Below, in pieces: positions 29,794-35,632 of a DNA stretch of 59,677 nucleotides. The notes beneath the pieces are model-generated. The model worked only from the letters and a program-made list of their open reading frames with translations, ran no database searches and was not told where the DNA came from. This DNA comes from a virus: the IMG/VR virus record IMGVR_UViG_3300035670_000231, positions 1-59,677 of that record; one strand, written 5' to 3'. The position numbers were made by a program, and so were the translations under genes. How positions within the stretch are numbered: position 1 is the first letter of the stretch; every line of letters starts with the position of its first letter.

Positions 29794-30960
29794 ATGAACG
29801 ACCTCGTCTCCAACCCCTTCGCGGCACCGGCCGCCAAACCCCAGAACGGCGCCCTCGCCCAGGCCGGCGAGCAGCGAGTCATCGCCGAGGTGCAGGCGAT
29901 GCTGGTCATCGCCAAGAAGTTCCCCCGCGACGAGCGCGCGGCCGTGGACAAGATCCTGAACGCCTTCACCCGGCCGTCGCTCTGCGAGGTGGCGAAGTAC
30001 CAGTACAGCCGCGGCGGCTCGGACGTCGACGGGCCGTCGATCCGCTCGGCCGAGGCCATCGCCCAACTCTGGGGCAACATCGAATTCGGCTTCCGCGAGA
30101 TCGGCCGCGGCGTCGGGCCGGACGGTGCCGGCTTCTCCGAGGTCGAGGCCTACGCCTGGGACATGCAGAGCATGACCCGCCGGCCGGCGCACTTCCGCGT
30201 CCGGCACTGGCGCGACACCAAGAAGGGCGGCTACCCGATCACGGACGAGCGCGACATCTACGAGCTGGTCGCCAATCAGGCGCAGCGCCGGGTCCGCGCC
30301 TGCATCCTGGCGATCATCCCGGGCGACGTCATCGAGGCCGCCATGTCGCAGGCCGAGGCCACGCTGCGCACCAAGGCCGACACCAGCCCCGAGGCCATGG
30401 TCAAGATGCTCGAAGCCTTCGCGGCCTTCGCCGTCACCAAGGAGCAGATCGAGAAGCGCATCCAGCGCCGGCTCGACGCCATCCAGCCCGCCCAGGTCGT
30501 GAGCCTGAAGAAGATCTACGCCAGCCTGCGCGACGGCATGAGCACGCCGGCCGAGTGGTTCGAGACCGAGGAGGCGCCGGCCGCGACCCCGCCCGCGGTC
30601 AAGACCGCCGACAAGGCCCTCGACGCCTTCGCCGGCAGCAAGCCCACACCGACCCCCAAGCCGACCCCGAAGCCGGCCAAGGAGCCAGCCGCGGAGCCGG
30701 CCATCGATCCGGCGACCGGCGAGGTCCTGGCGGTGCCCGAGATCCCCGAGGAGGCCATGCTGGCCTGGGTCGACGAGCAGAAGTGGATGCCGGCCTGGAA
30801 GTGGATCGGCATGAACCTGACGGCGATGCCGCAGGAGGTGCGCGGCGCCTTCGTCGCCGACAACCTGCAGATCATCCAGGCCGTGGCCGCCCACAACGAG
30901 AAGTACGCCAAGGCGGTCCGCGAGCTGATGGCGCAAGCCGGGGTGGCCTATGGCGACTGA
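29794..30960 (+). CDS. ssDNA-annealing recombinase (RecT/Red-beta functional type)
   Basis: 388 aa. KKFPRDERAAVDKILNAFTR, SYSRGG-type YQYSRGGSDVDGPSIRSAEA, IAQLWGNIEFGFREI, TKKGGYPITDERDIYELVAN and RRVRACILAIIPGDVIEAA form a family consistently encoded beside YqaJ nucleases in phages. A Pro/Lys linker (~285-310) leads to a C-terminal helical domain, perhaps an SSB-contact region. Annealing activity is inferred from gene pairing and the family's usual annotation. Confidence 0.8.
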   Translation: MNDLVSNPFAAPAAKPQNGALAQAGEQRVIAEVQAMLVIAKKFPRDERAAVDKILNAFTRPSLCEVAKYQYSRGGSDVDGPSIRSAEAIAQLWGNIEFGFREIGRGVGPDGAGFSEVEAYAWDMQSMTRRPAHFRVRHWRDTKKGGYPITDERDIYELVANQAQRRVRACILAIIPGDVIEAAMSQAEATLRTKADTSPEAMVKMLEAFAAFAVTKEQIEKRIQRRLDAIQPAQVVSLKKIYASLRDGMSTPAEWFETEEAPAATPPAVKTADKALDAFAGSKPTPTPKPTPKPAKEPAAEPAIDPATGEVLAVPEIPEEAMLAWVDEQKWMPAWKWIGMNLTAMPQEVRGAFVADNLQIIQAVAAHNEKYAKAVRELMAQAGVAYGD

Positions 30961-31222
30961 CCGCACCGCGCCCGAAACCGTCCCGGTGGCGAGGAGCCCG
31001 GAGAACGCGGCCCTGGGCAACCGGTTCCGCGAGGTCCGGCGCCGGCAGAAGGTCGGGCTCCTGGCCCTGGCCAAGGCCCTGGGCTGCTCGCTCAACACCG
31101 TCCGCTGGCACGAGGCCGGGGCGCGCATGCTGCGCCTCGACCACGTGGTCCAGGCAGCCGGCATCATGGGCGTCCAGCCCGTCGAACTTCTCCCCGAACG
31201 CGACGAGGAGCCCCACCCATGA
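30950..31222 (+). CDS. XRE-type HTH protein (90 aa)
   Basis: FREVRRRQKVGLLALAKALG, then CSLNTVRWHEAG, form a clear helix-turn-helix; the C-terminus (DHVVQAAGIMGVQPVELLPE) completes an XRE-like domain. It overlaps the annealing-protein gene by eleven bases. Besides the 7451 protein, this is the other candidate for binding the early operators. Confidence 0.8.
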   Translation: MATDRTAPETVPVARSPENAALGNRFREVRRRQKVGLLALAKALGCSLNTVRWHEAGARMLRLDHVVQAAGIMGVQPVELLPERDEEPHP

Positions 31223-32281: not shown

Positions 32282-32463
32282 GCGCCGCCATCGGCGAGGC
32301 CCTGCGCGACCAGGGCATCGAGCGCGTCGCCATGGGCAAGGAGGAGTGGCTCGCCGCCGCTGTTGGCAGAGCAACTGCACTTCGGGGCCTGCTATGGATG
32401 ACATCCTGCTGGCCCTGTACGCCACCCTGGCGCTGCTGCTGCTCACCACGCCGTTCTGAGTGA
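32278..32463 (+). CDS. Hypothetical protein, C-terminus uncertain (61 aa)
   Basis: GTG in GTGA overlap with the preceding stop. The first ~30 residues (SAAIGEALRDQGIERVAMGK, EEWLAAAV) match a small phage protein that usually continues as a helical domain. Here the frame runs into a Cys/Trp-rich, improbable tail (LLWMTSCWPCTPPWRCCCSP), while the shifted frame encodes a hydrophobic 21-mer from an ATG at 32394. Either the gene is truncated or an indel is present. Confidence 0.45.
   Translation: MSAAIGEALRDQGIERVAMGKEEWLAAAVGRATALRGLLWMTSCWPCTPPWRCCCSPRRSE
32394..32459 (+). CDS. Possible 21-aa membrane micropeptide
   Basis: ATG 32394 encodes MDDILLALYATLALLLLTTP F, almost entirely a transmembrane segment, with a GGGGC stretch upstream and stop TGA immediately before the methyltransferase start. 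It overlaps the 3' end of the preceding frame. Very short, so only tentative. Confidence 0.35.
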   Translation: MDDILLALYATLALLLLTTPF

Positions 32464-32468
32464 TTCAA

Positions 32469-33851
32469 ATGACCGACCTATTCACGTTTGGCAGCGTGTG
32501 CAGCGGCATCGAAGCCGCCAGTGTGGCGTGGCACCCGCTTGGGTGGCGGGCCGCGTGGCTGGCAGAGATTGAGCCGTTCCCTTCGGCGGTGCTGAAGCAC
32601 CACTACCCCGGGGTGCCCAACCTAGGCGACATGACCACGCTGCCGGATCGCATTCGCAGCGGCGAGGTGGAGGCCCCCAATCTGTTCTGCGGTGGTACAC
32701 CCTGCCAAGCGTTCAGCGTGGCCGGCCTGCGCCGGTCACTTGACGATGCGCGCGGCAACCTGTCGCTTACCTTCTGCGAGATCGCTGATGCAATTGACTC
32801 TGTTCGACGAGCCGCCGGCAAGCCTGCCAGCATCATCTTCTGGGAGAACGTCCCAGGAGTTCTTTCAACCGCAGACAACGCCTTCGGGTGCTTCCTCGGG
32901 GCGCTTGCTGGATGCGATTCCCCCGTCTTTTTGGGCGGTCGATGGACAGACGCGGGTGTGGTTGCTGGCCCCCAAAGAACAGTCGCGTGGCGCATCCTTG
33001 ATGCCCAATATTTCGGCTTGGCCCAACGACGCCGACGTGTGTTCGTTGTCGCAAGTGCTCGAGACGGGTTTGATCCCGCATCGGTTCTTTTTGAGTGGGA
33101 AGGCCTGCGCCGGGATTCTGCGCCGAGCAGAGAAGCGAGGCAAGGCACTACCCGAGGCGCTTCGGCAGGCGCTGGAAGCGGTATCGACTTCCAAAACGCA
33201 GCCCTAAGCGGCGATTTAGCGGGCACGTTGGACGCCGAAGGCCAGAAGCGCGGCAATCGTGGTCACGGCATCTTGGCCTTCGGTGGTGGCCAGAACTGCG
33301 CTCAGACTGACGTCAGCACCTCGCTGAGCGCCCATCCAGGAGGTTCAAGGCTGGACTTCCAGACAGAGACGTTCGTCACCCACTCCCTGCGCGGTGAAGG
33401 CTTCGACGCCAGCGAGGACGGCACGGGGCGAGGGACGCCTCTGGTGCCGGTGGCCTTCCACCCCACGCAAGACCCGATCAGCAGCACCGATGTCTGCCAT
33501 GCCATTGGCACGGGCAACGGGCAGGGGTGTGCGACGGCGGCAGTGGCGTTGCGTGGTCGTGATGGTGGCGCCACGGCAGAGCTTGGAGACGACGCTGCGT
33601 TTGCCTTGCGGGCGTCCAGCGGTGGTGGTGACAAGCCGCACGTTTTGGCTGCCATGCAAGTCCGCCGCCTCACTCCGCGCGAGTGCGAGCGCCTGCAGGG
33701 CTTCCCCGACAACTATACGGCCATCCCCTGGCGCGGCAAGCCGGCCGACCAGTGCCCCGACGGCCCGCGCTACAAGGCGCTGGGCAACTCTTGGGCCGTG
33801 CCGGTGGTGCGCTGGATCGGGCGCAGGATAGCGGCAGCGCTGCCGACATGA
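32469..33851 (+). CDS. dcm-like: C5 cytosine DNA methyltransferase
   Basis: 460 aa from ATG 32469 (GTG at 32460 is an alternative). Motif I FGSVCSGIEA (7-16), catalytic PCQ at 78-80 (GGTPCQAFSVAG), ENV at 126-128, QRRRRVF at 186-192, and motifs IX-X (RRLTPRECERLQGFPDNY; KALGNSWAVPVVRWIG) are complete. The target-recognition region (~205-380) is Gly/Ala-rich and, in part, also translated in another frame (see 32788-33207). The product methylates cytosine-5 in an unknown sequence, probably for anti-restriction. GC and codon use are slightly lower than in flanking genes. Confidence 0.93.
   Translation: MTDLFTFGSVCSGIEAASVAWHPLGWRAAWLAEIEPFPSAVLKHHYPGVPNLGDMTTLPDRIRSGEVEAPNLFCGGTPCQAFSVAGLRRSLDDARGNLSLTFCEIADAIDSVRRAAGKPASIIFWENVPGVLSTADNAFGCFLGALAGCDSPVFLGGRWTDAGVVAGPQRTVAWRILDAQYFGLAQRRRRVFVVASARDGFDPASVLFEWEGLRRDSAPSREARQGTTRGASAGAGSGIDFQNAALSGDLAGTLDAEGQKRGNRGHGILAFGGGQNCAQTDVSTSLSAHPGGSRLDFQTETFVTHSLRGEGFDASEDGTGRGTPLVPVAFHPTQDPISSTDVCHAIGTGNGQGCATAAVALRGRDGGATAELGDDAAFALRASSGGGDKPHVLAAMQVRRLTPRECERLQGFPDNYTAIPWRGKPADQCPDGPRYKALGNSWAVPVVRWIGRRIAAALPT
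32788..33207 (+). CDS. Overprinted frame inside the C5 methyltransferase gene (139 aa)
   Basis: Read one base out of frame with the methyltransferase. ATG 32788 gives MQLTLFDEPPASLPASSSGR, SSGRLLDAIPPSFW, then VCSLSQVLETGLIPHRFFLS, GKACAGILRRAEKRGKALPE and LRQALEAV. I recognise this as a known phage protein type (MQLTLFDE... start; SLSxVLETGxxPxRxxLSxKACxGILRRAEKRGKxLP core) that is usually found near such methyltransferases. Both frames therefore carry recognisable family sequence over the same ~400 bases. Whether it is translated independently is unproven: the ribosome site (GCGAGA) is weak. Confidence 0.6.
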   Translation: MQLTLFDEPPASLPASSSGRTSQEFFQPQTTPSGASSGRLLDAIPPSFWAVDGQTRVWLLAPKEQSRGASLMPNISAWPNDADVCSLSQVLETGLIPHRFFLSGKACAGILRRAEKRGKALPEALRQALEAVSTSKTQP

Positions 33852-34607: not shown

Positions 34608-35135
34608 TCAGTCGGGCGGCACGGCGCCGCTCAGCGCGTCGTGGGCCCGCTCGCAGGCCGCGCCTGCGGCACCTCGGGCATCGGCCACGGCAGCAAGCTC
34701 TCGGCCAGCCGCTTCCAGCCGTCCGAGCACGTCGGCGAGCACAGCGCCGGGGTCGCCGGCTGCCGCGCCTGCGGCGGCAGCGCCGGCACCACGGCCGGCG
34801 ACGGCGCACTGGCGGGCGTAGACCTCGGCGCGCTGCCGCAGGCTGTCACCAGCAGCGCGAGCAAGACGGGCGTCAGCACGCGCACGCTCGATCTGCTGCT
34901 GGCTCTCGGTGGCGATCCGGTCATGGCGGGTCCTCCAGTCGTTCTCAATCCGCCGCGCCTGCTCGGCCAGCTCCGCCCGCTCCGTCGCCCAGGCCGCCCG
35001 CTCTTCAGCAAGCACCCTCTGAGCCTCAGAAACGGCCCTCAGGGCGTTCTGACGGTCGAGGTAGAGGTACAGGCAGGCCGCGGCCAGAAAAAGGGCCACA
35101 GCGCCCGCTGCAGCGGCCCAGACCCGGTCGATCAT
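34608..35135 (-). CDS. Rz: Rz-like inner-membrane spanin
   Basis: 175 aa from ATG 35135, in ATGA overlap with the endolysin gene. One N-terminal membrane segment (residues ~7-26, WAAAAGAVALFLAAACLYLY) and a long periplasmic coiled coil (LRAVSEAQRVLAEERAAWAT and onward) define the i-spanin. With Rz1, encoded inside it in another frame, it bridges inner and outer membranes and fuses them at the end of lysis in Gram-negative hosts. Confidence 0.85.
   Translation of the reverse strand: MIDRVWAAAAGAVALFLAAACLYLYLDRQNALRAVSEAQRVLAEERAAWATERAELAEQARRIENDWRTRHDRIATESQQQIERARADARLARAAGDSLRQRAEVYARQCAVAGRGAGAAAAGAAAGDPGAVLADVLGRLEAAGRELAAVADARGAAGAACERAHDALSGAVPPD
34631..34924 (-). CDS. Rz1: Rz1-like outer-membrane lipoprotein spanin, nested in Rz
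   Basis: 97 aa from ATG 34924, wholly inside the Rz gene in a different frame. The signal peptide VLTPVLLALLVTAC ends in a lipobox with Cys 29, and the mature part is Pro-rich (GSAPRSTPASAPSPAVVPAL). This is the classical Rz/Rz1 nested organisation and confirms a Gram-negative host. Confidence 0.85.
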   Translation of the reverse strand: MTGSPPRASSRSSVRVLTPVLLALLVTACGSAPRSTPASAPSPAVVPALPPQARQPATPALCSPTCSDGWKRLAESLLPWPMPEVPQARPASGPTTR

Positions 35136-35632
35136 GGCTTGCCCTCGCACTTGGCGCGCTCAACAGCCCGGCGCTCCACCAGACCGCCGCACCTGTTGAC
35201 GGGATCTCGACAGTCCTTGCCCTGGAAGAACACCCACCTGTCAAATTCCGCACAGGCGCCAGCATAGTCGCCAGCATTGAGCCTGCGCACCAGGGTCGAT
35301 CCGCAGAACTTGCCCGCGCCCACGTTGTAGGCGAAGGACAGAAAGGCGTCGTACTCGTGCTGATGCAGGGGCACCGTGACGCAGGTCTTGAGCGCGCCCT
35401 CAAACCTGCGCACGTCGTCGAGCTTACGGGTCAAGGCCCGAATCGGGTCGGTGCGCTCGCCCATCTGCACCGGGCTGCCATCGGCGTGCCGCGTGGTGCC
35501 GAAGCCGATCGTCGCCACGTCGCCCGCGACCGGCACATAGGCCGTCTCGCGGTAGCCCTCGAACACCGCGATGCCGACCAGCCCGGAAGCCGAGAGCGAC
35601 AGCGCGGCGACGGCGATCCTGACGCGGTTCAT
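35132..35632 (-). CDS. SAR endolysin, GH24 lysozyme family
   Basis: 166 aa. The N-terminal hydrophobic but Ala/Ser/Gly-rich segment (residues ~4-24, VRIAVAALSLSASGLVGIAV) is a signal-arrest-release anchor. Catalytic Glu 25 follows directly (FEGYRETAYVPVAGDVATIG, Asp 38, Thr 41), in the PVxGDVxTIGFGTT variant rather than the usual E-8-D-5-T spacing. LHQHEYDAFLSFAYNVGAGK is the conserved GH24 centre. Activated by release from the membrane when the holin depolarises it. Confidence 0.88.
   Translation of the reverse strand: MNRVRIAVAALSLSASGLVGIAVFEGYRETAYVPVAGDVATIGFGTTRHADGSPVQMGERTDPIRALTRKLDDVRRFEGALKTCVTVPLHQHEYDAFLSFAYNVGAGKFCGSTLVRRLNAGDYAGACAEFDRWVFFQGKDCRDPVNRCGGLVERRAVERAKCEGKP

Follow-up and report, generated by a model that had tools for sequence, protein, structure and literature searches.

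Nested genes encoded on the same strand are a known kind of phage gene: in phiX174 and in the Rz/Rz1 spanin pairs, a second protein is specified wholly within another gene, in a different frame and from its own start. Split C5 methyltransferases such as M.AquI, which consist of two subunits, and the Dmt methyltransferase of phage P1 are the other described systems with which the present locus can be compared. Here we analyse a 59,677-base virus record from IMG/VR (IMGVR_UViG_3300035670_000231, ~70% GC; hereafter the window), in which a gene for a C5-cytosine DNA methyltransferase (MTase) carries in its +1 frame a second gene, encoding a small basic protein for which we coined the name Cmp. With a probability of about 0.9, this region is a conserved dual-coding segment that specifies, from one mRNA, a phage C5 MTase and, from an internal ATG, the separate protein Cmp. 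In its placement, frame and own start Cmp resembles the nested genes of phiX174 and the spanins, but its host gene is a conserved enzyme, the overlap covers the catalytic core and the arrangement occurs in phages of several bacterial phyla; the family is near-universal in, and deeply tied to, its class of phage C5 MTases. P1 Dmt shares the MTase domain and the +1-frame Cmp that overlies it, but it is a larger protein (754 amino acids (aa)), and its annotation is that of a bifunctional methyltransferase, GATC adenine methylation included. According to the part of a review consulted, de novo overlapping genes are usually of restricted distribution (PMC8227390).

Two open frames in one gene, conserved across divergent phages

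The MTase open reading frame (ORF), which has a possible start at 32460 as well as the one listed in Table 1, matches Pfam PF00145 (1.5e-33) and phrog_116 (7.6e-88) and contains PCQ, ENVPG, QRRRRVFVVA and LGNSWAV; with the catalytic PC, ENV, QRRR and motif X all legible, its product is predicted to be a C5-cytosine MTase. Within this gene no stop interrupts the +1 frame between 32692 and 33207, the interval in which the Cmp ATG lies. A preliminary description of this DNA had pointed to intact ENVPG and QRRRRVFVVA motifs, both of which we read in the MTase ORF, and to three +1-frame peptides, MQLTLFDEPP..., VCSLSQVLETG and KACAGILRRAEKRGKALP, each of which we found where it had placed them. Members of the Cmp family are 126–189 aa long (median 142) and basic (median isoelectric point (pI) 9.0). 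In the window protein a Ser/Pro/Thr-rich N-terminus precedes a C-terminal part of pI 10.0, in which AlphaFold2 predicts helices at residues 87–93, 104–117 and 123–135, with block-mean predicted local distance difference test (pLDDT) values of 89–96 for residues 101–130. Three helices recur in the predicted model of a Firmicutes-type Cmp, consistent with a common architecture.

Table 1 Features of the dual-coding locus in the window
Feature	Position	Strand	Basis or conservation
C5-cytosine DNA methyltransferase (MTase) coding sequence (CDS), 460 aa	32469..33851	+	PF00145, phrog_116, motifs
MTase motifs	catalytic PCQ ~32700-32708; ENVPG from 32844; QRRRR 33024-33038; motif X LGNSW near 33780	+	
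Shine–Dalgarno-like GCGAG, 7 nucleotides before the Cmp ATG	32776..32780	+	homologues have GGAG, AGGTG, GTGAG and similar
MTase codon GAT, which with the next G forms the Cmp ATG	32787..32790	+	T-ending (AAT or GAT) in 53/53 aligned relatives, with AAC and GAC absent
Cmp, overprinted +1-frame gene, ATG to TAA, 139 aa, pI 8.8	32788..33207	+	open frame, homologues, synonymous-site constraint
Cmp residues 1-80, Ser/Pro/Thr-rich, predicted disordered	32788..33027	+	pLDDT ~50-56, composition, fourfold identity 56-64%
Cmp residues 84-135, predicted helical domain, strongest constraint in the overlap	33037..33192	+	AlphaFold2, fourfold sites 89% over residues 81-120

In a single GC-rich sequence an open frame of 170 codons proves little, and the window, with its high GC, has many such long ORFs, so it is the comparison with relatives that decides the question of chance. 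Across 485 related loci the MTase frame was open in all 485, Cmp in the +1 frame in 475 and the third frame in none; at the 180 loci found via Cmp the corresponding counts were 180, 178 and 0. Ten interruptions of Cmp account for the difference in the larger set, of which five lie past its conserved end, two fall within the first 10 residues and three are real. Because most of the 485 loci had been found through Cmp, which biases the set, the sampling was repeated with the MTase N-terminus, a region wholly upstream of the overlap. Cmp was then present in the +1 frame at 79/79 loci of the window type, 76/76 of the Firmicutes type and 12/13 of the Caulobacter jumbo-phage type, that is, at 167 of 168 loci when the three divergent groups are pooled. 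Both frames are therefore open across homologues, and the possibility raised in the preliminary description, that the second frame would be broken in most close relatives, came out the opposite way.

Linkage to the methyltransferase and possible functions

A free-standing Cmp was sought and none was found: each of the 485 loci retrieved has an MTase match in the overlapped frame, and in a profile search of 299 genomes, made with a tighter Cmp alignment, the Cmp matches likewise all overlapped an MTase, with no free copy. The preliminary description had seen two known families in the same DNA; the two have not come together here by chance as independent families, since Cmp was never seen apart from the MTase in anything searched.

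At four unrelated loci (L065, L206, L242 and L282, of which L206 is an isolate genome, Pseudomonas abyssi), Cmp runs in frame into the C-terminal half of the MTase, comprising the target-recognition region and motifs IX–X, and the N-terminal half forms an ORF of its own. In Faecalibacterium phage Toutatis (L093, 2093–2707), the MTase N-terminal half is fused in frame to the C-terminal part of Cmp, and the MTase C-terminal half is a separate ORF. Such joined ORFs may be frameshift mutants or working split enzymes, and those at the four loci would give a possible two-subunit enzyme. Like split MTases of the M.AquI type, the four loci part motifs I–VIII from the target-recognition region with motifs IX–X, but their second ORF starts with Cmp, and the MTase of the window is one continuous ORF.

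That no Cmp turned up away from the MTase, and that at four loci it runs in frame into the C-terminal half of that enzyme, leads us to a tentative guess, separate from our confidence in dual coding: Cmp may serve as a partner or regulator, either of the MTase encoded with it or of phage DNA metabolism. With the same reserve, a whole class of phage C5 MTases might encode its own partner or regulator in the +1 frame of the catalytic core, an arrangement of sufficient age to span phages of several bacterial phyla and essentially never lost. At least as likely, though itself short of an even chance, is that Cmp is real and functionally unrelated to the MTase, acting for example in host takeover or anti-defence; this competes with the favoured function and leaves dual coding as it is. 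Cmp is small, basic and phage-borne, and overprinted genes are often functionally unrelated to their host gene, both of which fit such a role. It fits less well that no free-standing copy appeared at the 485 loci or in the 299-genome profile searches, though escape from the overlap would pay. Frameshifted products are less likely than either of these.

An internal start is favoured over frameshifting

The Cmp ATG occupies the same alignment column at 53/53 non-redundant loci and at 69/69 non-redundant loci of the Firmicutes type, and similarity among Cmp proteins begins at this codon. The MTase residue at this point is Asn, Asp or, rarely, His, for which a C-ending codon would serve equally well, and the background use of T at such codons is 0.34 (AAT) and 0.52 (GAT). 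Over 335 Cmp starts, the mean energy of the duplex with the anti-Shine–Dalgarno sequence was −4.83 kcal/mol, versus −2.65 kcal/mol after synonymous recoding (Wilcoxon p 1.5e-42, a statistic that ignores relatedness and is indicative only). Together, the conserved ATG and the Shine–Dalgarno-like site favour independent internal initiation over frameshifting, and these sequence signals suggest that Cmp is most likely translated from its own internal start. One mRNA would then yield the MTase (frame M) and Cmp (+1 frame, ~14–17 kDa), with Cmp initiating at the internal ATG independently of MTase initiation and presumably acting in trans.

Programmed +1 frameshifting from the MTase would instead produce a truncated MTase with a Cmp tail and no separate protein. 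The natural frame-swapped joins, of the MTase N-terminal half to Cmp in Toutatis and of Cmp to the MTase C-terminal half at the four other loci, lend this some plausibility, but we consider it improbable: frameshifting needs neither the ATG nor the Shine–Dalgarno-like site, yet both are conserved, and Cmp similarity starts at precisely that ATG. A P1 virion proteome names Dmt as one of the proteins identified by two peptides (PMC9024508); Cmp was not looked for in it by name.

Purifying selection on the second frame

The second codon position of Cmp coincides with the wobble position of the MTase. Among pairs 50–90% identical in the upstream MTase, fourfold-degenerate MTase sites were 31–36% identical outside the overlap, which is near saturation, versus 62–71% inside it. 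Followed along the gene, fourfold identity was 0.39 before the overlap, rose to 0.56, 0.64, 0.89 and 0.66 over Cmp residues 1–40, 41–80, 81–120 and 121–138, and was 0.33 and 0.41 after it. The codon-position comparison proposed in the preliminary description thus finds MTase synonymous sites constrained only inside the overlap, with a peak over what is predicted to be the helical domain of Cmp. GC content at third codon positions of the window MTase is 0.80 before the overlap, 0.55 within it and 0.77 after it.

As a control, the MTase was synonymously recoded at its own codon usage. The +1 frame then stayed open in only 9–23% of trials, with 1.4–2.9 stops each, and the profile score of the window Cmp fell from 204 bits to a mean of 59. 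Firmicutes Cmps scored 102 bits (minimum 87) against a profile built of proteobacterial-type Cmps only, and their recoded versions a mean of 17 (maximum 62); because the recoded proteins score so much lower, homology of the MTases does not account for the likeness of the two Cmp types. The resemblance was therefore kept in profile searches, where the preliminary description had allowed that it might be lost. By the fourfold sites and the recoding control, Cmp is under purifying selection beyond that acting on the MTase frame, strongest in its C-terminal helical domain.

It is very unlikely that conservation of the MTase protein and codon bias keep the +1 frame open and similar as a by-product, with no product of its own. 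In favour of this reading, ENVPG and QRRRR are conserved in their own right as MTase motifs, and chance ORFs, in which the window is rich, grow longer at high GC; but recoding closes the frame in most trials and removes most of the profile score, the fourfold sites are constrained inside the overlap only, the third frame is never open, and in the block 33087–33146 the Cmp frame is conserved more than the MTase frame (0.91 versus 0.79). Chance or codon bias as the cause of the +1 frame is contradicted by the recoding control and the fourfold-site profile. We give as little credence to a constraint acting on RNA structure or a DNA site without a second protein: fourfold-site conservation by itself cannot name its cause, but the constraint, which is strongest over the domain predicted to be folded, ends close to the stop codon of Cmp, the Cmp frame is stop-free over ~130 codons at hundreds of loci, and Cmp residues align between the Firmicutes and proteobacterial types. 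A recombination scar joining two genes in this phage, which the preliminary description had offered beside a conserved dual-coding region, has nothing but the oddity of the arrangement in its favour and is refuted, because hundreds of divergent loci share this arrangement and its start codon keeps a fixed aligned position; the dual-coding half of that description stands.

Several points weigh against dual coding as we read it, or against parts of that reading. Within the overlap, 24 of 41 counted differences between four P1-like plasmids and P1 leave the MTase protein unchanged but alter Cmp; many of these are shared, and the changes in Cmp lie mainly in its N-terminal half, in a sample too sparse and shared to test selection. 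These differences imply that the N-terminal part of Cmp is loosely constrained in the short term. The relatives compared are not independent, which inflates the probabilities. The Shine–Dalgarno-like site of the window itself, GCGAG, is weak, and we infer the translation of Cmp from its sequence. The joined forms may be frameshift mutants rather than signs of a partner role, and that role rests on a linkage that overprinting gives anyway.

Distribution and origin

Cmp lies over the MTase in phages of Pseudomonadota, Bacillota, Mycobacterium, Akkermansia and cyanobacteria. Examples among annotated phages, with the +1 offset reckoned from the start of the annotated CDS, include Escherichia P1 (dmt), Pseudomonas TC7, Enterobacter CobraSix and Pectobacterium MA11; Providencia, Caulobacter and Brevundimonas jumbo phages; Mycobacterium Dove and Phoebus; and Streptococcus Javan, Ruminococcus, Akkermansia and Pseudanabaena phages. 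Only one of the records examined annotates Cmp as a gene, namely gp104 of Mycobacterium phage Thibault. Among 5,426 complete E. coli genomes, 517 carry the P1 form, for the most part on plasmids; of 299 genomes sampled from the phylum to which a Pseudomonas belongs, 5 have a member of the family. A comparison of 19 genomes found 19 C5-MTase loci of other types, all without Cmp, and 11 loci of the phage type, all with it.

In a tree of the N-terminal part of the MTase, built on few columns, the dual-coded MTases fall on one side of a branch with support 88/45. On the simplest reading, Cmp was overprinted onto an older MTase gene, probably once, in the ancestor of this phage MTase class; counting against that, a single origin is not strongly supported by 88/45.

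Many E. coli P1-type copies match P1 only to base 406 of the 471 of the Cmp gene (L083) and then diverge, which suggests a recombination boundary near the Cmp C-terminus in P1-like plasmids. In Mycobacterium phages Thibault, Constella and Schatzie (L524, L525 and L527; ~848–1465), the MTase gene is split by an HNH endonuclease gene at or close to the segment that codes in both frames. The endonuclease gene is apparently intron-borne (one record states 'unable to determine intron boundaries'), in which case splicing would be needed to regain the MTase and possibly Cmp as well.

Family libraries, fold searches and earlier literature

The preliminary description had recognized the second frame as a separate phage family. 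In substance this holds, with 139 phage records encoding Cmp, but the family is nearly uncatalogued: searches of Pfam and NCBIfam with the window Cmp returned no match, and its similarity to phrog_16143 is not significant (E 0.38). Of 35 Cmp family members, 11 match PHROG 16143, called 'DNA methyltransferase' (139 positions), with a best value of 1e-8; that group therefore contains at least part of the family, and it appears to be named after the overlapped gene and not after the protein itself. Cmp family members had no match in Pfam, nor Cmp among PDB sequences; LaoB_over_CadC (NCBIfam), at 0.0053 in one member, was weak and taken as chance.

Foldseek searches of the PDB with two Cmp models returned nothing with E below 0.001, and the best VIA-align result for the Cmp model (Z 3.3) is not reliable as a fold match; a failed fold search does not show that the fold is new. 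The only two high-probability matches in a viral structure library were a protein named cytosine methyltransferase and an 81-aa protein of Mycobacteriophage Thibault, the length of gp104, which is annotated in the Cmp frame. On the MTase side, phrog_864 ('DNA primase') strongly matches the window MTase (9.5e-69, profile positions 654–951 of 1064) and seems either to include primase–MTase fusions or to carry the wrong name.

We found no prior description of the Cmp family or of its association with the MTase in the open-licence literature searched, outside which most subscription papers and preprints fall, and priority for the family cannot be claimed. The part of the GeneTack frame-transition survey consulted mentions no case of a DNA cytosine methyltransferase.

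As a rule, long overlapping genes are of recent origin and narrow distribution; here ~140 dual-coding codons survive deep divergence, and the locus offers a natural system in which to study two proteins evolving in one sequence. Gene callers and MTase annotation miss Cmp, which adds an almost wholly unannotated family to well-studied phages (P1, mycobacteriophages, Vibrio and gut phages). Mutants and recodings of such phage MTases, P1 dmt included, probably altered the second gene too.

Elsewhere in the window, an Rz-like spanin gene at 34608–35150 (− strand; phrog_312, 2e-24) contains, nested in another frame at 34631–35011 (− strand), a gene for an Rz1-like lipoprotein (phrog_11621, 7.6e-13), and a small repressor-like protein is encoded at 30950–31222 (+ strand; phrog_2328, 6e-6).
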